A DNA stretch of 64,000 bases. Source: Gemmatimonadaceae bacterium (GTDB taxonomy: Bacteria; Gemmatimonadota; Gemmatimonadetes; Gemmatimonadales; Gemmatimonadaceae). Below, one piece after another: positions 158-11,122 of the stretch. Both the position numbers and the translations under genes were made by a program. The stretch spans positions 124,001 to 188,000 of the forward strand of contig DASXKV010000038.1 of NCBI GenBank assembly GCA_036496605.1. Direction: 5' to 3'. A model generated the notes under the pieces. The model saw nothing but the letters and a program-made list of their open reading frames with translations. It searched no databases and was not told the origin of the DNA. The first letter of the stretch is position 1; each line of letters opens with the position of its first letter.

Positions 158-915
<758 letters not shown>

Positions 916-916
<1 letters not shown>

Positions 917-2715
917 TGACGCTTTTGTTCGAGACGAGTCATCCCGAATCATCCTTCCGCGACTCCTCGACGCGGCGGAGGATGCTCGGTCGCTGGGCGC
1001 TGATGCTGGCGATTCTTGTTCTCGCGACGATCGCGATGTACGTCGTGCGTCGGTCGCTCGACAAGGCGCACGTAACGCTCGTCTACCTCCTCATCGTGCT
1101 GGCGGCGAGCGCGGCGGGGGGCCGCGCGCTGGGCCTCACCGTCGCGGGCCTGGCATTTCTCTGCTTCGACTTCTTCTTCCTCGTCCCGTACCTGACGCTC
1201 ACGATATCGAACCCGCTGGACTGGCTCGTCCTCGTGGCTTTCCTGATCACCAGCGTCGTGGCCGCGCAGCTGCTGTATCGCGCCAACGCGACGGCAGACG
1301 AGGCGATGCAGCGCGCGATCGAGGTCGACCGACTCGCCGCGTTGGGCGAGGAGACGCTCAATGCGGCGGACGCCAACGAAGCGCTCCGCGCGATCGCCGA
1401 CGTCATTCGCCATTCGACCGACGCCGACAGGTGTGAGATCTACCTTCATGGTATCGACGCGCGCATCACGCGCGTCGCACGGGCAGCGCCGAATGACGAA
1501 GGGGGGGCGCTCGAGCATCCGCTCGCGCCGAGTCTCGGCAATGCGGAGCGGGCGTCTCGAACCGCGCCGCGCGGCAGCCTCATCGAATGGATCATCGACC
1601 ATGCGGCGAGCGCGGTCGAGCTCACCGACGGCACGGTGCGCGTCGCGCACGAGCTTCCGCCCCCCCGGCGGTCTCCCGGTGGACAACGCTGGGAGGCTCA
1701 GGCTGAAACCGCGGCTGCTGTTCGCGCCGTGACACGTGTCGAGAGCGCGTCCACGCTTCGACGCTTGAGTGAGAGCCTTCGTACCGCTGACGCTGGTGGC
1801 CGCTCCACCGCCGACGGCCCAGCGGTGCGTGCGATTGCGTTGCCGCTCCAAGCTCGCAGTCACGCGGTGGGCGTGCTGCGGCTCATGTCCGTCGACGGGC
1901 TCTCACTCTCGCCCGAGCAGGCGCGTCTCTTGGTGGCGCTGGCCTACTACGCCGCACTCGGCGCCGAGCGTGCGCGCCTCGTCGCGACGGCGGAGCGTGC
2001 CGAGGCGGAACGGCGCGTCGACAGTCTGCGGAGCGCGTTGTTGACGGCTGTCTCGCACGACCTACGCACTCCGCTCACGACGATCAAGGGCATCGCGAAC
2101 GAGCTATTGCGCGGTGGCGACCCGCGTCGCGCCGCGATCATCGAGAGCGAGGCAGACCGGCTGAATGCGCTGGTCAGCGATCTGCTGGACTTGTCGCGTA
2201 TCCACGCCGGCGCCGTTCGGCCCGCGCTCGCCGTCAACACGGTCGATGATCTGCTTGGCGCCGCCCTGCAAGGCGCCGCTGGCGCGTTAGGCACGCGTCG
2301 AGTCCGCATCGATGTACCAGACGGCGAGCTCCTGGCTGGCCTGTTCGACTTCACCCAAACACTTCGCGTCGTGGTGAACCTGCTCGACAACGCCGCGAAG
2401 TACTCCCCGCGCGGCGGCGCGATCGATATTCGTGCATGTCGGCAAGGCGAGCGCCTAACGATCGACGTCATGGATCGCGGCCCGGGTATTCCCTCTGGGG
2501 AGCGCGATCGCGTCTTCGAGGCGTTCTACCGCCCGCCCGGTGTGCCGCCCGACATTCGTGGCCACGGACTCGGCTTGTCGATCGCTCGCGGACTAGCTGA
2601 AGCCGAAGGCGCGTCACTGCGTTTTGCACCGCGTGTCGGCGGCGGGTCGGTGTTCACGCTCGATCTACCGGCCGCGGCAGCGATGGCGGTCGACGCGGAT
2701 CTGCCGAGCCTCTGA
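916..2715 (+). CDS. kdpD: KdpD C-terminal half: membrane histidine kinase
   Basis: Sensor kinase of the K+/turgor system, but only the C-terminal half of a normal KdpD. It begins with the four-helix KdpD membrane domain (DUF4118, about residues 25-125), then a GAF-like linker, a HisKA dimerisation domain with phospho-acceptor H381 in SHDLRTPL, and a HATPase_c domain (N-box NLLDNA, DRGPGIP, GHGLGLSIA). The N-terminal nucleotide-binding and Usp domains of standard KdpD (about 890 aa in total) are missing here; they are encoded separately at 8862-10103. Length is 599 aa. The start ATG overlaps the kdpE stop, so it should phosphorylate that regulator. Confidence 0.88.
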
Positions 2716-2970: not shown

Positions 2971-3093
2971 GTGATCGACATCATCTACGTTGTCACCACC
3001 ATCGTGTTTTTCGCGCTTATGATCGCGTACGTCGCCGCCTGCGACCGGTTAGGCCGTGCCGCGGACGTGGAGCGCGGCGGAACGGAGCGATGA
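2971..3093 (+). CDS. Small membrane peptide preceding kdpF
   Basis: A 40-residue peptide starting at GTG 2971 with a good ribosome-binding site (GAAAGAGGAG). It is one hydrophobic helix (about residues 2-22) followed by a short charged tail (CDRLGRAADVERGG). Its stop overlaps the kdpF ATG as ATGA. Short single-span peptides with a C-terminal CDRL-like sequence are often seen immediately upstream of kdpF/kdpA, so a role in assembling or stabilising the Kdp complex is plausible. That role is inferred from position only. Confidence 0.6.
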   Translation: MIDIIYVVTTIVFFALMIAYVAACDRLGRAADVERGGTER

Positions 3094-3182
3094 TGACTCT
3101 CGAAAGTCTGGTCACCGGCATTTTGGCCGTCGCGATTCTCGTCTATCTGATCTACACGTTGTTGCGGCCAGAGCGGTTCTAG
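3090..3182 (+). CDS. kdpF: KdpF, small subunit of the K+-transporting ATPase
   Basis: A 30-residue single-span membrane peptide starting at the first of two consecutive ATG codons (3090 or 3093) and ending LLRPERF, the typical KdpF C-terminus. KdpF is a lipid-like stabilising subunit of the KdpFABC complex in the inner membrane. The gene overlaps the preceding peptide by 4 bp and lies 3 bp before kdpA. Length, hydrophobic core, tail and position all agree with KdpF. Confidence 0.8.
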   Translation: MMTLESLVTGILAVAILVYLIYTLLRPERF

Positions 3183-3185
3183 GCC

Positions 3186-4901
3186 ATGACGCTGAACGGC
3201 TGGCTTCAAATCCTTTTCTACAGCGCGTGCGTGCTGCTCGTCGCGAAGCCGATCGGGCTGTATCTCGTGCGCGTGTACGATGGCACGTATAAATGGCTCG
3301 CGCCGATCGAACGCGCGATCTATGGAGTCTGCGGCGTCGATCCGGCCGAGGACCAGCACTGGACTCGTTATGCGGCGGGGATGCTGCTCTTCAGCGCGGT
3401 GTCGATGTTGCTCACCTACGTCGTGTTGCGGCTGCAGGGCGTCCTGCCCCTGAACCCGCAGCACCTGCCGGCCGTCGTCGACCGGCAGGCGTTCGAGACG
3501 TCGGCATCGTTCACGACGAACACGAACTGGCAATCGTATGTCGGCGAGACGACGATGTCCTATCTCTCGCAGATGTCGCAGCTGGCATTTCACAACTTCG
3601 TATCAGCGGCGGCGGGAATCGCCGTTGCCGTGGCCTTCGTCCGTGGAATCGCGCGGCGCTCGGCCGGTCGCATCGGGAATTTCTGGGTCGACCTAACGCG
3701 GGGCACACTGTACGTGCTGCTGCCTGCGTGTCTGATGCTGTCACTCCTGCTCGTCCAGCAGGGAACGATTCAGAACTTCAAACCCTACCTCACGCTGGCC
3801 ACGCTCGAGGGCGGAAAGCAGACGATCGCGATGGGACCCGTCGCGAGTCAGGAAATCATCAAGCAGCTCGGTACGAATGGCGGTGGCTTCTTCAACGCGA
3901 ACGCCGCGCATCCATTCGAGAATCCGACGCCGTGGAGCAACTTCTGGTCGATGTTTACGATCTTCATGATTCCCTCCGGGCTGACATATCTGCTCGGCCG
4001 AATGGTGAAGAGCCAGAAGCACGGGTGGGCAGTGTGGGCGGCAATGTTCGTGCTCTTCTTCGGCGGCGTGACGACCGCATACTGGGCCGAAGCGCGCGGA
4101 AATCCGATTCACATCAAGCTTGGCATCGACCCAACGACGAGCCACGCGCAGCCTGGCGGTAACATGGAAGGGAAGGAGGTCCGCTTCGGCATCGCGAATT
4201 CCGTTCTCTATGCTACGGTAACGACCGACGCCTCGTGTGGCGCGGTGAACGCGATGCACGACTCGTTCACGCCGCTCGGCGGCCTCGTGCCGCTCGTGAA
4301 CATCCAACTCGGTGAAGTGGTGTTCGGCGGGGTGGGGGCCGGGTTGTACGGTATGCTTGTCATGGTCGTGTTGACCGTATTCATCGCAGGCCTGATGGTC
4401 GGCCGCACGCCGGAGTATCTCGGAAAGAAGATTCAGGCGCGCGAAGTCCAGATGGCGATGTTGTACATACTGATCTTTCCCGCCGCGATTCTGACGATGA
4501 CGGCGGTGTCGGCACTATTGCCGGCTGGCCTCAAGGGCCTGAACAATGCCGGCCCGCACGGGTTGTCGGAAATCCTGTACGCGTTCACGTCCACCGCGGG
4601 CAACAATGGCAGCGCCTTCGCCGGCCTAACGGGGACGACCTACTACTACAACACCATGCTCGGCATGAACACACTCATCGGACGGTTTGCGATGATCGTG
4701 CCAATGCTCGCGCTCGCCGGCTTCCTGGCGGAGAAGAAGGTTGCGCCCGAATCGGTCGGAACCTTTCCGGTGACGACGCCGCTCTTCGTAATTCTGCTCG
4801 TCTCCGTCGTCGTGATCGTGAGCGCCCTCACGTTCTTCCCGGCCCTCTCGCTCGGTCCCATCGTTGAGCACTTGCTCATGGGCTCGGGAAAGCTGTTCTG
4901 A
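3186..4901 (+). CDS. kdpA: Potassium-transporting ATPase subunit A
   Basis: K+-binding, channel-like subunit of the high-affinity KdpFABC pump in the inner membrane. The 571 aa match the family length, with about ten membrane spans. All four pore-loop regions are recognisable: [44 protein letters not shown] and [14 protein letters not shown]. The filter glycines look intact, so the channel should be functional. The gene is 2 bp upstream of kdpB. Confidence 0.97.
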
Positions 4902-4903
4902 CC

Positions 4904-7084
4904 ATGACGACGATTCCTACTTTGCCATTATCGCCATCCGGTGAGGCGCGCACCTCCGCGCACGGCGCGGCTCAGCGACAACAGTCGAACCGCAAGCGTC
5001 CGCTGTTCGACCCTCCCATCGTCCGTCGCGCGATCAGGGACGCCTTCGTCAAGCTCGACCCGCGCCGCATGGTGCGGAATCCGGTCATGTTCGTCGTGCT
5101 CGTCGGCGCGACGTACACGACGGTGGTCTTCGTGCGCGAACTCGCCCATGGGCGATCCGATTGGGGCTTTACGCTGCAGCTCGCCCTGTGGCTCTGGTTC
5201 ACGGTCGTGTTCGCGAACTTCGCCGAGGCAATGGCGGAAGGACGGGGGAAGGCGCAGGCAGACACGTTGCGCAAGTCGCGCACGCAGACAAGCGCGAAGC
5301 GGCTCCTGTCGGCGAACAATGGCCGGATCGATCGGTCGCGTTATGAGGAGGTCAATGCCGAGCGACTGCGCAAGGGCGATCGCGTCGTGTGTTTGCCGGG
5401 CGACGTCATTCCAGGCGACGGCGAGGTGATCGACGGTGTTGCGTCGGTCGATGAAAGCGCGATCACCGGCGAAAGCGCGCCGGTAATCCGCGAGTCGGGG
5501 GGCGACCGCTCCGCCGTCACGGGCGGCACGAAGGTGCTGTCCGATTACATCGTCGTCCGCATGACCGCGAACCCCGGCGAGACCTTCCTCGACCGCATGA
5601 TCGCGCTCGTCGAGGGAGCGTCGCGTCAGAAGACGCCTAACGAGATCGCTCTCACGATCCTGTTGTCCGGGCTGACGATCGTGTTCTTGTTCGCGGTCGC
5701 GACCCTCCAGCCCTTCGCAGTCTATAGCGGCGCGGCGACGACGATTCCGATTCTCATTGCGCTGCTCGTCTGTCTGATACCGACGACGATCGGCGGATTG
5801 CTGTCGGCGATCGGCATCGCCGGCATGGACCGGATGATCCAGCAAAACGTGATCGCGATGAGTGGCCGCGCGGTCGAGGCGGCAGGCGACGTCAACACAC
5901 TACTTCTCGACAAGACCGGGACCATCACACTCGGCAATCGACAGGCGTCGGACTTTCTTCCTGTCACGGGCGTCGCGCCGGAGCTCCTCGCCGACCGGGC
6001 GCAGCTCGCGTCGCTCGCGGACGAAACGCCGGAAGGCCGCAGCATCGTCGTGCTGGCGAAGACGAAGTTCGGCATTCGGGCGCGCGCGATCGGTGGCGAG
6101 CACGACGGACATCGCGACGTCACATTCATTCCATTCAGCGCGAGCACGCGCATGAGCGGCGTGGACACCGACGGTTACCAGGTACGCAAGGGCGCCGGTG
6201 ATGCCGTTCTCACGTGGGTGCGCGATCACGCTGGTCATACGCCGGCCGACCTGGAAACGACCGTTCAACAGGTCGCGCTCGCGGGTGGCACGCCGCTCGT
6301 CGTCGCCGAGAAGGCCAATGGCAGTCGCACCGGCGAGGGCGCGCGCATCCTCGGCGTCGTCTACCTCAAGGACATCGTGAAGGGTGGTATTCGCGAACGG
6401 TTCGATCGTCTGCGCGCGATGGGCATTCGCACGGTGATGATCACCGGCGACAACCCACTCACCGCGGCCGCCATTGCGAAAGAGGCGGGCGTCGACGATT
6501 TCCTCGCTGAAGCAAAACCCGAAGACAAGATGGCGCTCATCAAACGCGAGCAGGCCGGTGGCCGGCTCGTCGCGATGACGGGCGACGGAACGAATGACGC
6601 GCCGGCGCTCGCGCAGGCAGATGTTGGCGTCGCAATGAACACCGGTACGCAGGCGGCGAAGGAAGCGGGAAACATGATCGATCTGGACTCCAATCCGACC
6701 AAGCTGATCGAGGTCGTCGAGATCGGTAAGCAATTGCTCATGACGCGCGGTTCGCTGACGACATTCTCCATTGCCAACGACGTCGCAAAATATTTTGCGA
6801 TCATTCCCGCGATGTTCGTGGCGACCTATCCTGTTTTGCAGACGCTCAACATCATGCGGCTGCACTCGCCGCAATCGGCGATTCTGGCGAGCGTGATCTT
6901 CAACGCGCTCATCATCATCGTGCTGATCCCCCTCGCGTTGCGCGGAGTGACGTATCGCCCGGCCGCCGCGGCGGTGATTCTGCGGCGCAACTTGTTCGTG
7001 TATGGGATCGGTGGGCTCGTCGCGCCGTTCGTCGGCATCAAGATCATCGACATGCTACTGGTCGTCTTGCGCCTGGCATCCTGA
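4904..7084 (+). CDS. kdpB: Potassium-transporting ATPase ATP-binding subunit
   Basis: P-type ATPase subunit that energises K+ transport through KdpA. Visible motifs are the actuator loop TGES, the phosphorylation motif DKTGT, the MITGDN hinge and the [11 protein letters not shown] motif that binds Mg2+. Length is 726 aa against about 680 in E. coli; the excess is mainly a polar N-terminal extension of roughly 40 residues rich in S, R and Q. It follows kdpA directly and precedes kdpC by 20 bp. Confidence 0.97.
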
Positions 7085-7104
7085 CGATCTGAGAGGGAAG
7101 ACTC

Positions 7105-7707
7105 ATGATTCGCAAACAGCTTCAACCGGCGGTAATGATGACGCTCGTTCTGTGTGTCGTCACCGGATTGCTCTATCCCGCCGCCGTGACGGGGCTCGCC
7201 CAGGTGATTTTCCCACGGCAGGCCAACGGCTCGCTCGTGATGGCAAACGGCCGCGTCGTCGGCAGCGAGTTGATCGGACAAGCATTCACGAAGGCCGAAT
7301 ACTTTCATCCGCGGCCGTCCGCCGCGGGGAACGGCTACGACGCGACGGCGTCCGGTGGTACGAACAAAGGACCGACCGACGCGAAGCTCGCCGATACGCT
7401 TATTTCGCAAGCAATCGAAACCGCCGTCAACACCGACGGCGTGATAAAAGGCGGGATTCCGTCGGACATGGTGACGGCATCGGCGTCGGGCCTCGATCCC
7501 GACATCTCGCCCGCGAACGCGCGCCTGCAAGTGCCCCGTGTCGCTCGGGCTCGCGGCGTATCCGAGGCTGCCGTTGGGGCACTCGTGGCTCGTCACGTTC
7601 AGGGACGTCAATTCGGCTTTTTCGGTGAGCCGCGTGTCAACGTCTTGCTGCTCAACATCGCGGTCGACTCAGCGTTTGGCCTGCGCAAGCCATTGTCGTC
7701 GAAATAA
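7105..7707 (+). CDS. kdpC: Potassium-transporting ATPase subunit C
   Basis: Single-span subunit that stabilises the KdpFABC complex and supports ATP binding by KdpB. At 200 aa it is of normal length. An N-terminal membrane helix (about residues 10-33, with LLYPAAVTG) is followed by the periplasmic domain, with the conserved EYFHPRPSA and NVLLLN motifs. A ribosome-binding site (GAGAGGGAAG) lies before ATG 7105. Confidence 0.96.
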   Translation: MIRKQLQPAVMMTLVLCVVTGLLYPAAVTGLAQVIFPRQANGSLVMANGRVVGSELIGQAFTKAEYFHPRPSAAGNGYDATASGGTNKGPTDAKLADTLISQAIETAVNTDGVIKGGIPSDMVTASASGLDPDISPANARLQVPRVARARGVSEAAVGALVARHVQGRQFGFFGEPRVNVLLLNIAVDSAFGLRKPLSSK

Positions 7708-7716
7708 TCGCCTCCC

Positions 7717-8841
7717 ATGTCCATTGCGAACCGAGTGATGCTCGGATCCCTTCTCCTCGCGCCCATCGTTGGCCACGCCCAGGCGGCGGCTGACACGACG
7801 ATCAAGTTCACCTTTGGCGGCTTCATCGATGCGTACTACGCCTACGACATCGACCGGCCGCCAACGATCGATCGTTCGTTCTTTGGCGGCGCATTGTTCA
7901 CCACGCAGCCGGCCCGGCACGACGAGTTCAACGTCAACCTGGCGTATCTCGAGACCAACATCTCGGGCAAACGGTTGCACGGACGCTTTGCGTTGCAGGC
8001 CGGAACGTCGGTCCAATCGAACTACAATAGCGAGCCGACGACCGGCATCGTGAGCGGGCCATCGCTGTCGCGCATGATTCAGGAAGCGTACGCCGGCTAT
8101 CAACTCCGGCCGACGGTCTGGATCGATGCGGGCATCTTCTATTCGAACGCCGGATTGGAGGGTTGGGCTTCCAAAGACAATCCGACGTACACCCGTTCGC
8201 TCGTCGCGGATTACTCGCCCTACTACTCGAGCGGCGTCCGCGCCGTTTGGCAAGCCACGTCGAAGCTCGTCGCTCGCCTGGACGTGATCAACGGCTGGCA
8301 GAACATCTCGGAGACGAACAGCGAAAAGGGCGTTGGGTTACGCCTCGACTACACGCCTAACGGGAATGTCGCGGTCAGCTATTACAACTTGTTCAACGAC
8401 GAAGTCGGCAGCGGTGGCCAGGTCGGCACTCGGCTGCGTATCTTCAACGGCGCCGGCGCGAAGCTGACATCCGGGCGAACGACGCTACTCGGTGAGCTCG
8501 ACTATGGCACGCTTCGTCCATCGTCGACGGGCGTGAACGCATCGAACTGGTGGGGTTATACCGCAATCGCGCGCGAGCAACTGGTGCTCGGCGCAGCCAT
8601 CGTTGCGCGCGTCGAGCGCTACAACGATCCTCGGCAGGTGAACATCGTGACGGGGCTTGCGAATCCCTTTCAGGGCAACGGTGCCTCGCTTGGCGTCGAT
8701 GTGTCGCCGCAACCAGGCTTGATGTGGCGCTCGGAGCTGAGGGGCTTCTTCGCCGCGAGCGCCGTATTCCCGGATGCCGCCGGGTCGATTCCCCGAAAGA
8801 CCGACGGCTTTCTCGTGAGCTCGCTGTCGCTCGCGTTCTGA
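7717..8841 (+). CDS. Outer-membrane beta-barrel porin, OmpL-like (BBP2 family)
   Basis: A 374-residue secreted protein with an N-terminal signal peptide (about residues 1-22, cleavage near GHAQA) and a mature part of alternating aromatic and polar strands beginning FTFGGFIDAYYAYD. This opening and the repeated short glycine/tyrosine-rich strands resemble the putative beta-barrel porin-2 family. The last residues (SLSLAF) end in phenylalanine, as expected for BAM-inserted barrels. It sits 9 bp after kdpC and before the KdpD sensor half, so it is probably co-expressed with the K+ pump. A role as an outer-membrane ion path is inferred from this context. Confidence 0.75.
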   Translation: MSIANRVMLGSLLLAPIVGHAQAAADTTIKFTFGGFIDAYYAYDIDRPPTIDRSFFGGALFTTQPARHDEFNVNLAYLETNISGKRLHGRFALQAGTSVQSNYNSEPTTGIVSGPSLSRMIQEAYAGYQLRPTVWIDAGIFYSNAGLEGWASKDNPTYTRSLVADYSPYYSSGVRAVWQATSKLVARLDVINGWQNISETNSEKGVGLRLDYTPNGNVAVSYYNLFNDEVGSGGQVGTRLRIFNGAGAKLTSGRTTLLGELDYGTLRPSSTGVNASNWWGYTAIAREQLVLGAAIVARVERYNDPRQVNIVTGLANPFQGNGASLGVDVSPQPGLMWRSELRGFFAASAVFPDAAGSIPRKTDGFLVSSLSLAF

Positions 8842-8861: not shown

Positions 8862-10103
8862 ATGCCCGACGACACATCGCGTGCGACGGAGCGACGGTTC
8901 ACGCAATCGCGCACGCCGGGCAGCTCCGACTTCCTCGCGCTCATGCGGCAGCGTGAGCGGGGACGACTCAAAGTCTACATCGGCTCCGCTGCCGGCACGG
9001 GCAAGACGTATCGCATGCTGCAAGAGGCGCAGGATCTCCGGCGTCGCGGGGTCGACGTCGTCGTCGGCTACGTCGAGACGCACAATCGCGCCGAGACCGC
9101 CGCGCAGATTCAGGATCTCGAGGTCGTGCCGCGCCGGAAAATCGCATATCGCGGCGTGACGCTCGAAGAAATGGACGTCGACGCAGTCGTCGCGCGTCGC
9201 CCGCAAGTCGCGATCGTCGACGAGCTCGCGCACACCAACGTCCCCGGAGCGCGCAACGGCAAGCGATGGCAGGACGTCCTTCACCTCCTCGACGAAGGCA
9301 TCAACGTCATTACCGCCGTCAACGTGCAACACCTCGAGTCGTTGAACGACGTACTCGAGCGCGAGCTAGGCGTTACCGTTCGGGAAACCGTACCCGACTG
9401 GGTCGTCGGCCAGGCCGACCAGGTCGTCAACCTCGACATCTCGGCGGAAGACCTCCGGCAGCGGCTGCGAGAAGGGAAAATCTATCATCCCGACAAGATC
9501 CAGACCGCGCTCACGAACTTCTTCACCGACGAGAACCTAACGACGCTCCGGGAGCTCGCGTTGCGCGAGGTCGCGAGCTCCGTCGATCGCTCGCGTGAGG
9601 AGATCGTGCGCCGTCAGGAAAATGGCGCGACGGTGGCCCGTCGAACGGTCGACCGCGTCATGGCATGCCTGTCGAGTGACCCGCCGCTCTCGCGCGTTTT
9701 GTTGCGCAAGGCGAGCCGCATCGCGGGCCGTCTCAATACCGACTGGTTCTGCGTCTACGTCCAGCTGCCCGAGGAGCGCGCCGACCGGATCGACAGCACC
9801 GTCCAGCGCCATCTTGTCGAGAATATCCAACTTGCACAGTCGTTAGGTGCAGAAGTCGTCAAGCTCGAAGGAAATGACGTCGCCGGCACGCTCGTCCGAT
9901 TCGCATCCGAACGCGGCGTGACACTCGCGATCGTCGGGGAAACGCGGCGGTCGCGCTGGTATCGATTGCGTCGCGGCTCGATCGTCGATCGACTCCTGGC
10001 CGGACACACCGGTCTCGACGTCCTCGTCGTCTCCGGCGCTGACGAAGCCGAGCTCAAATCAGCGACGCGCGACCACCGCGTCGACATCGGGAGCGACGAG
10101 TGA
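8862..10103 (+). CDS. KdpD N-terminal half: stand-alone sensor protein
   Basis: A 413-residue cytoplasmic protein equal to the N-terminal part of KdpD. It has the KdpD sensor domain (about residues 34-245) with a Walker A motif GSAAGTGKT (41-49) and the Walker B-like DELAHTN (120-126), then a Usp-type domain (about 270-400). It has no membrane or kinase domain. The kinase half is a separate gene at 916-2715, about 6 kb upstream on the same strand. In full-length KdpD this region senses K+ and/or c-di-AMP and modulates kinase and phosphatase activity. Here it would have to act in trans or through the next gene, which it overlaps by 4 bp (GTGA). Confidence 0.88.
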   Translation: MPDDTSRATERRFTQSRTPGSSDFLALMRQRERGRLKVYIGSAAGTGKTYRMLQEAQDLRRRGVDVVVGYVETHNRAETAAQIQDLEVVPRRKIAYRGVTLEEMDVDAVVARRPQVAIVDELAHTNVPGARNGKRWQDVLHLLDEGINVITAVNVQHLESLNDVLERELGVTVRETVPDWVVGQADQVVNLDISAEDLRQRLREGKIYHPDKIQTALTNFFTDENLTTLRELALREVASSVDRSREEIVRRQENGATVARRTVDRVMACLSSDPPLSRVLLRKASRIAGRLNTDWFCVYVQLPEERADRIDSTVQRHLVENIQLAQSLGAEVVKLEGNDVAGTLVRFASERGVTLAIVGETRRSRWYRLRRGSIVDRLLAGHTGLDVLVVSGADEAELKSATRDHRVDIGSDE

Positions 10104-11122
10104 GCCCCGGTTTGGCCAAGCGGCGTGTATCGCGCGCCATCGCATGGCGTCTCGGTGCCGGCGTTTTGCCGTCCATTCTCGCCATCGGCCTCGTCGTCGG
10201 CTTGTTCTATTATGGCGAATACGGCCGCGAGGCTCCGCGAGCATTTCTCGGTGCCGCAGCGGCGCTCACCGTTGCGTCGATTGTCGTTGCCTGGGCCAAC
10301 GCGACCTACTTCGCCGAGCGGCTCGCCCGCCTCGCGCATTCGACGAGCAAGGTGTCCGGCGGGAGCGAGCGCACCGACGAGTTCGACCGCATCGAACGAG
10401 CAGTCGGCAAACTCGATTCGGCCCTCACCGCGGCCGAAGTCGATCGCGCGCGCAGTGACGCATTGGCTGCCGCGCGACTCCAGGAGCAGGCAACCATGCT
10501 CGCCGGGGTCGTGAGCGACACGCTCGCGCAACTCGATCAGGTGCGGCTACCCCTGCAGATCCTCCTCGAAAGCCCATTCGGGGAGTTGAACGAAAACCAG
10601 GAAGAGTTGTTGCGCGACGCGCGCATCGCAGCCGACGCGATCGATCTTGCGCTACGGCGACTGGCGCAGGTTGCCGATGTCGATCGCGACGCGCTGCCGA
10701 TTCAACGCGAGCTCGTGCAGATCAACGACGTCGTGCGCTCGGTGCTTCCCGTGGCGCGCGCTGTTGCCGAGCGACGCGGTGCGCGAACCGAGACAGCGCT
10801 CGAGCCCGGCCTTCCGCGTGTCGTCGCCGACCGCGCGCGCCTCGCCGAAGCGCTGTCACTGTTTCTCGCCGACTCCGCTGGCGAATCGAGTGGCGCAACG
10901 TCGTTGCGCATCTCGACGGCGCGTGTCGGATCGAGCGCCCTCATTCGCATCGCGCCAGTGAGCTCTGCCGCGCGCGCTGCGGCGCCGGTCGACGTGCAAT
11001 CGAACGGATCGCTTCCCGATGGTGCAGAGCGCTCGACACTCATCCTCGCATCCCGATTGATCTCGGCGCAGGGCGGTGAGGTCGGCATCGACGACGGTGC
11101 ATTGGTGCTTCGCGTCGGCTGA
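10100..11122 (+). CDS. Membrane protein resembling a degenerate histidine kinase
   Basis: A 340-residue protein with two membrane helices (about residues 17-37 and 50-68), a charged HAMP-like linker, a HisKA-like helical pair (about 125-200) and a remnant of a HATPase fold (about 205-340). The H-box reads LDQVRLPL at 146-153, with D147 where the phospho-acceptor histidine belongs. The N-box equivalent (LSLFLADSA, about 252-260) lacks its asparagines and no DxGxG motif is visible. It is therefore probably a pseudo-kinase or scaffold. It overlaps the KdpD sensor-half gene by 4 bp, so it may tether that protein to the membrane (inference). Confidence 0.7.
   Translation: MSPGLAKRRVSRAIAWRLGAGVLPSILAIGLVVGLFYYGEYGREAPRAFLGAAAALTVASIVVAWANATYFAERLARLAHSTSKVSGGSERTDEFDRIERAVGKLDSALTAAEVDRARSDALAAARLQEQATMLAGVVSDTLAQLDQVRLPLQILLESPFGELNENQEELLRDARIAADAIDLALRRLAQVADVDRDALPIQRELVQINDVVRSVLPVARAVAERRGARTETALEPGLPRVVADRARLAEALSLFLADSAGESSGATSLRISTARVGSSALIRIAPVSSAARAAAPVDVQSNGSLPDGAERSTLILASRLISAQGGEVGIDDGALVLRVG

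Follow-up and report, generated by a model that had tools for sequence, protein, structure and literature searches.

A degenerate histidine kinase adjoining the short KdpD chain of Gemmatimonadaceae, a candidate partner of a predicted serine kinase

Recent work has shown that KdpD unites serine-kinase and histidine-kinase functions in a single protein. In Escherichia coli, the KdpD domain is described as an atypical serine kinase that phosphorylates S162 of KdpB and thereby inhibits the potassium pump at high K+ (Silberberg 2024, PMC11018627). According to the same source, this serine kinase functions without the histidine kinase domains, and the two activities can occupy separate chains. Such split KdpDs are reported there to be commonest in Acidobacteriota and Chloroflexota; Gemmatimonadota do not appear in its main text.

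A kdp cluster from a Gemmatimonadaceae bacterium raises a further question. Directly behind its short KdpD gene lies a gene for what appears to be a histidine kinase stripped of its catalytic residues. What would such a protein do beside a serine kinase? The question is addressed here from a 64,000-nucleotide stretch of DNA (the window) and from the relatives of its genes in Gemmatimonadota.

A split KdpD cluster with a third chain

The cluster lies on the forward strand of the window, in the order kdpE, KdpD-C, kdpF, kdpA, kdpB, kdpC, a BBP2-type porin, KdpD/Usp and the degenerate kinase, here called pHK. The response regulator gene kdpE (158..916), recognized from its sequence and Pfam, is followed by KdpD-C (916..2715), an intact kinase with the layout DUF4118-GAF-HisKA-HATPase by Pfam and alignment. 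The start of KdpD-C is inferred from a TGATG overlap with kdpE, and positions 868-2715 were used in searches. A kdpF-like frame (about 3090-3182) stands ahead of what we take, from gene order and likeness to known Kdp sequences, to be kdpA, kdpB and kdpC (3186..7707), as we do for kdpF itself. The porin (7717..8841; Pfam PF07642, 4.6e-60) separates kdpC from the KdpD/Usp gene (8862..10103), whose stop codon overlaps the GTG start codon of pHK (10100..11122, 340 residues) by 4 bp in the sequence GTGA (10100..10103). This overlap had been seen in the initial annotation and is confirmed.

The KdpD/Usp chain is matched by Pfam KdpD (PF02702, 1.9e-94) and Usp. Its Walker A motif, its Walker B pair (D120/E121) and R201 correspond to those of E. 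coli at a constant offset of 11; W39 of E. coli is a Tyr in the window, and its adenine-binding partner R201 is kept. Judged from these motifs (Walker A, Walker B and an adenine-binding pair with Tyr for W39), the chain would be the serine-kinase half of a split KdpD, and positions 158-2715 encode a separate, intact histidine kinase together with KdpE. This is the arrangement described for split KdpD, with the serine- and histidine-kinase halves on two chains within one kdp cluster (PMC11018627). The passages of that paper on split KdpD do not mention a third, dead-kinase chain, and the short KdpD chains described there have no membrane part. The top NCBIfam match of KdpD/Usp is NF038185, “KdpD-like non-kinase potassium sensor”, at 397 bits, below the cut-off of 550; this model covers the KdpD chain, and pHK falls outside it. 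The initial annotation had placed a pseudo-histidine kinase beside the KdpD “sensor half”. The pairing of a pseudokinase with a short KdpD stands, but in the light of PMC11018627 the latter is better called the serine-kinase half.

The KdpB of the window contains the sequence ITGESAP, and TGES is present at every locus whose sequence spans that part of KdpB. The TGES motif is general to P-type ATPases, so its presence is uninformative on phosphorylation of S162.

Two further DUF4118 kinases are encoded outside the kdp cluster of the window's genome (C22:19947-21440 and C3:35519-36988), both 51-55% identical to KdpD-C in the kinase part. At other loci, kdpA (L063) and KdpD/Usp (L064, L061) are broken across two reading frames, probably by assembly errors.

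The fold and the lost motifs of pHK

Two membrane helices can be placed by hydropathy at residues of about 18-36 (10151..10207) and about 48-66 (10241..10297), within helices that AlphaFold puts at residues 3-40 and 47-81. The loop that joins them is short, and no Pfam sensor domain was matched. In the AlphaFold model, which was made from a 13-sequence alignment (mean pLDDT 82.9, pTM 0.57), the two membrane helices are followed by a long helix that runs into a helical hairpin and by an α/β domain. The linker helix and the DHp-like hairpin comprise helices 93-157 and 165-195 (10376..10684), and the CA-like domain covers residues 204-340 (10709..11119).

A Foldseek search with this model retrieved histidine kinases, led by GacS (E 8.1e-12) and followed by RetS chains. 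VIA-align placed it closest to CpxA (Z 17.8 over 216 residues, 4.1 Å), GacS (17.6) and DivL (16.2), and among PDB sequences the pHK profile also retrieves ZraS, DivL and RetS. Searched by itself, the pHK sequence gives no Pfam match to HisKA or HATPase_c at E up to 1, and HATPase_c is matched in one of the 13 aligned members (E up to 0.01). No Pfam match to DUF4118 or GAF, the domains that precede HisKA in the kinase half of a full-length KdpD, was obtained for pHK. As modelled, pHK has the fold of a DHp-CA transmitter. The two-helix anchor and HisKA-like layout read earlier from the sequence are thus borne out by structure prediction.

The catalytic residues are another matter. The intact kinase at locus L116 served as the reference for the register, being the best-scoring intact kinase in the pHK profile search. 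Helix 1 and the hairpin align with it without a gap (VSDTLAQLDQVRLPLQILLE..FGELNENQ in pHK and VSHQLRTPLTALRMSIHLLLE..VGALNEKQ in the intact kinase). What looks like an RxPL motif (RTPL) then corresponds to the RMSI stretch, seven residues along, and a MAFFT alignment of pHK with KdpD-C gives the same offset of seven. The phospho-histidine column is occupied by S139 (10514..10516). The initial annotation had named D147 as the substitute for the phospho-acceptor. The residue is in fact D146 (10535..10537), seven residues (two helix turns) beyond the histidine column, and this register rules it out as the substituted histidine; that no histidine stands there is correct. A phospho-acceptor histidine occurs in none of 48 pHKs at the S139 column and in none of 47 at the D146 column, so its loss holds whichever alignment is used.

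In the CA-like domain, the N box, G1, G2 and the ATP lid are missing from the window's pHK, as had been noted before. The N-box asparagine is found in 1 of the 48 pHKs (its column is occupied by D258 in the window), the G1 aspartate in none, and the ATP lid is missing. These motifs are kept in all 20 KdpD-C and all six full-length KdpD kinases of the alignment. A histidine 14 residues beyond the lost one is present in 45 of the 48 pHKs, with Q153 at that place in the window. These counts omit five of the 53 pHKs (L057, L088, L089, L096 and L114), in which the hairpin motif lies outside the search pattern; by eye, the residues A, G, E and S were found between them at the histidine column of L057, L088, L089 and L114, and L096 ends at a contig edge. 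Neither of the features that mark an active HisKA/HATPase_c kinase, the phospho-histidine and the N box with G1/G2, is present in pHK, and the protein is predicted to be inactive as a kinase. With a modelled DHp-CA fold and no catalytic motifs in the alignments, it would count as a histidine pseudokinase in the broad sense. That pHK is a real and conserved pseudo-histidine kinase appears nearly certain.

The gene is under purifying selection, with dN/dS between 0.037 and 0.245 over 20 pairs of relatives. Conservation is unevenly spread. Response regulators dock beside the histidine box, and among the four pHK regions measured this box shows the lowest conservation, with 2.44 bits of entropy per column vs 0.44 in KdpD-C. 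The lower half of helix 1 with the hairpin tip has the lowest entropy of the four, 0.85 bits. Read from these columns, the phosphotransfer site is released by selection and the hairpin is held. A relay of phosphate by pHK, which had been entertained as well, finds no support in a protein whose histidine box is the most variable of the regions measured.

Distribution, pairing and descent

A KdpD domain was found in 54 of the 179 genomes of the family. In 46 of these, a short KdpD is accompanied by an adjoining pHK, two fusions included. The other eight lack pHK: six of them have a full-length KdpD, and two (G042 and G077) a short one. In all, 47 family genomes have a pHK, the window's among them; in the one beyond these 46, G102, the contig ends within the gene. 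The occurrence of relatives in matching gene order in 46 other family genomes shows that the open reading frame is not a product of chance.

Of 12 relatives identified by name, 11 come from metagenome-assembled genomes of Gemmatimonadaceae or other Gemmatimonadetes, and the twelfth is labelled only “bacterium”. In a 395-genome sample of the phylum, pHKs score at least 140 bits (44 places), and the rest score at most 79 bits among the matches listed. Six pHKs belong to two other families, each adjoining a KdpD/Usp gene, for a total of 53 in Gemmatimonadota (locus L006 was excluded as a duplicate of L112). Outside the family, nine loci of the full-length KdpD type have no pHK; two of these loci are truncated by the end of a contig.

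Where the two genes are separate, the pHK start codon lies at a 4-bp overlap with the KdpD/Usp stop in 38 of 50 pairs and at a 1-bp overlap in three. In two further pairs, from related genomes (L087 and L095), KdpD/Usp and pHK are fused into proteins of 685-696 residues without membrane helices. KdpD-C is found within the cluster at 28 of the 31 loci with sufficient upstream sequence; it is absent from the upstream stretch in G043, G162 and G116, where similar kinases are encoded elsewhere in the genome, in G043 at a distance of about 1.9 Mb. The open-access literature searched yielded no account of KdpD paired with a pseudokinase. Split KdpD and histidine pseudokinases are each known, and for the pairing of both, as it appears in these sequences, no earlier report was found.

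A tree of the 48 pHKs and 31 intact kinases unites the pHKs in a single clade, with the L117 and L116 kinases as the nearest. No relative with intact H, N and G boxes was found inside the family. A recent inactivation is ruled out, as intact relatives are absent from the clade. Descent from KdpD-C or from the kinase of a full-length KdpD was also rejected, since the clade is separate from both, although the 31 intact kinases include only five beyond the KdpD types, picked by their similarity to pHK. Among the intact kinases of the 395 genomes, the one at L116 scores highest against the pHK profile; it is a HAMP-HisKA-HATPase protein with a weak PAS match from the kdp cluster of G179. Its neighbors are a sigma-54 response regulator and a KdpD/Usp chain extended by a PTS IIA domain. 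The arrangement in G315 resembles that of G179, but its kinase scores 45 bits against the pHK profile. It may be that pHK descends from such a cluster kinase, which became redundant once KdpD-C/KdpE took over transcription.

The proposed role of pHK

Taken together, the evidence makes pHK a likely partner of KdpD/Usp. Counted in favor of this are its place beside the short KdpD in 46 of 54 genomes and its absence from the six with the full-length form, as well as the 4-bp overlaps and the two fusions. With less assurance, we favor the view that pHK is a long-established membrane anchor and dimer module of KdpD/Usp, and probably its signal input. The low dN/dS, the conserved hairpin beside an unconserved histidine box, and the retained serine-kinase residues all argue for this reading. 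The scaffold or anchor role put forward initially is thus still the best one, with KdpD/Usp as the likely partner and without the relay.

In the proposed mechanism, KdpD/Usp, translated just ahead of pHK, would be tethered by it at the membrane. By analogy with E. coli, its serine kinase would phosphorylate KdpB and stop the potassium pump at high K+, and transcription would be handled by the intact KdpD-C/KdpE pair. The DHp-like hairpin would pass control to the serine kinase. Binding, tethering and control through the hairpin are what we infer from the data as a whole, and control of the serine-kinase activity is plausible.

Some observations count against this reading. G042 and G077 have a short KdpD without pHK. 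The value for co-variation between pHK and KdpD/Usp (partial Mantel 0.365, n = 16) barely exceeds the one for the neighboring porin and KdpD/Usp (0.325), and adjacency may explain it. Moreover, the E. coli KdpD domain by itself is described as phosphorylating KdpB (PMC11018627), so a partner is unnecessary for catalysis.

Known regulators of similar fold offer a different model. RetS of Pseudomonas, whose histidine-kinase region is near to pHK in fold, acts via another kinase (PMC9491836), the histidine kinase GacS. Accordingly, pHK might form mixed dimers with KdpD-C and so inform KdpE, and hence transcription, of the state of KdpD/Usp. KdpD-C does share the cluster at 28 of 31 loci, and RetS and DivL are among the top structural matches, although this is evidence on fold only. 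However, the hairpin of KdpD-C is shorter in alignments, KdpD-C is missing upstream in G043, G162 and G116, with similar kinases elsewhere in those genomes, and the co-variation between pHK and KdpD-C disappears on correction for KdpD/Usp (-0.07, n = 19). This possibility is considered unlikely.

Slightly less likely still is a passive tether, with no sensing function, that would only keep KdpD/Usp at the membrane close to the pump. The short loop between the helices and the lack of a matched Pfam sensor domain would suit it, and it shares the evidence of adjacency and fusion with the preferred reading. The entire transmitter fold is retained, however, which goes beyond the needs of a tether, and nine pHKs are maintained without any membrane helix.

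DivL of Caulobacter has a histidine-kinase fold without kinase activity, as predicted for pHK, but it regulates a different histidine kinase and serves as a sensor of a response regulator (PMC4211667, PMC9491836). In pHK, unlike DivL, the histidine box is lost and the partner would be a serine-kinase chain. A DivL-like reader, in which the DHp face of pHK binds phosphorylated KdpE and reports to KdpD/Usp, draws on the structural match (Z 16.2) and on the precedent of DivL as an established pseudokinase of this type (PMC4211667), but is very improbable given the entropy of the histidine box (2.44 bits vs 0.44 in KdpD-C).

A short KdpD/Usp of Deinococcus is activated by c-di-AMP (PMC11018627). 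A diadenylate cyclase is encoded in 71 of the 179 family genomes, the window's included. It is present in 28 of the 47 pHK genomes and missing from all six that have a full-length KdpD. Thirty-five of the 47 pHKs have two membrane helices, 18 of them in genomes without the cyclase and 17 in genomes with it; two have one helix, both with the cyclase, and one is cut by a contig end. The nine pHKs without a membrane helix, from five genera, all occur in genomes with the cyclase, and two helices are found in all 18 cyclase-less family genomes with a complete pHK. The restriction of helix-less pHKs to cyclase genomes fits a replacement of the membrane input by c-di-AMP. Across few lineages or events, and in partly incomplete genomes, the pattern suggests that the membrane part of pHK matters where c-di-AMP is absent. 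A more far-reaching version, put forward tentatively, is that pHK is a transmitter turned control subunit: the state of the membrane or of K+ would move the dead DHp-CA and so switch the Walker-type kinase of KdpD on KdpB, and lineages without membrane helices would have shifted control to c-di-AMP.

If the preferred reading is true, a dead histidine kinase would be in the service of a serine kinase and not of another histidine kinase. A serine-kinase half with a dedicated partner, on separate chains in a compact operon, would also allow its control to be studied without the histidine kinase.

Some features of the clusters lie outside this question. In the kdp clusters at L116 and L121, a short KdpD is accompanied by an intact HAMP-type histidine kinase and a sigma-54 response regulator in place of KdpD-C/KdpE. 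The domain added to the C-terminus of KdpD/Usp in G179 (L116:15097-16758) is a PTS EIIA type 2 domain (PF00359, E 3.9e-17), which may link control of the potassium pump to the phosphotransferase system. A BBP2-type porin lies between kdpC and kdpD in most clusters examined, of the split as well as the full-length KdpD type (L104-L109); such an association of an outer-membrane porin with the operon of a potassium pump seems to deserve attention.
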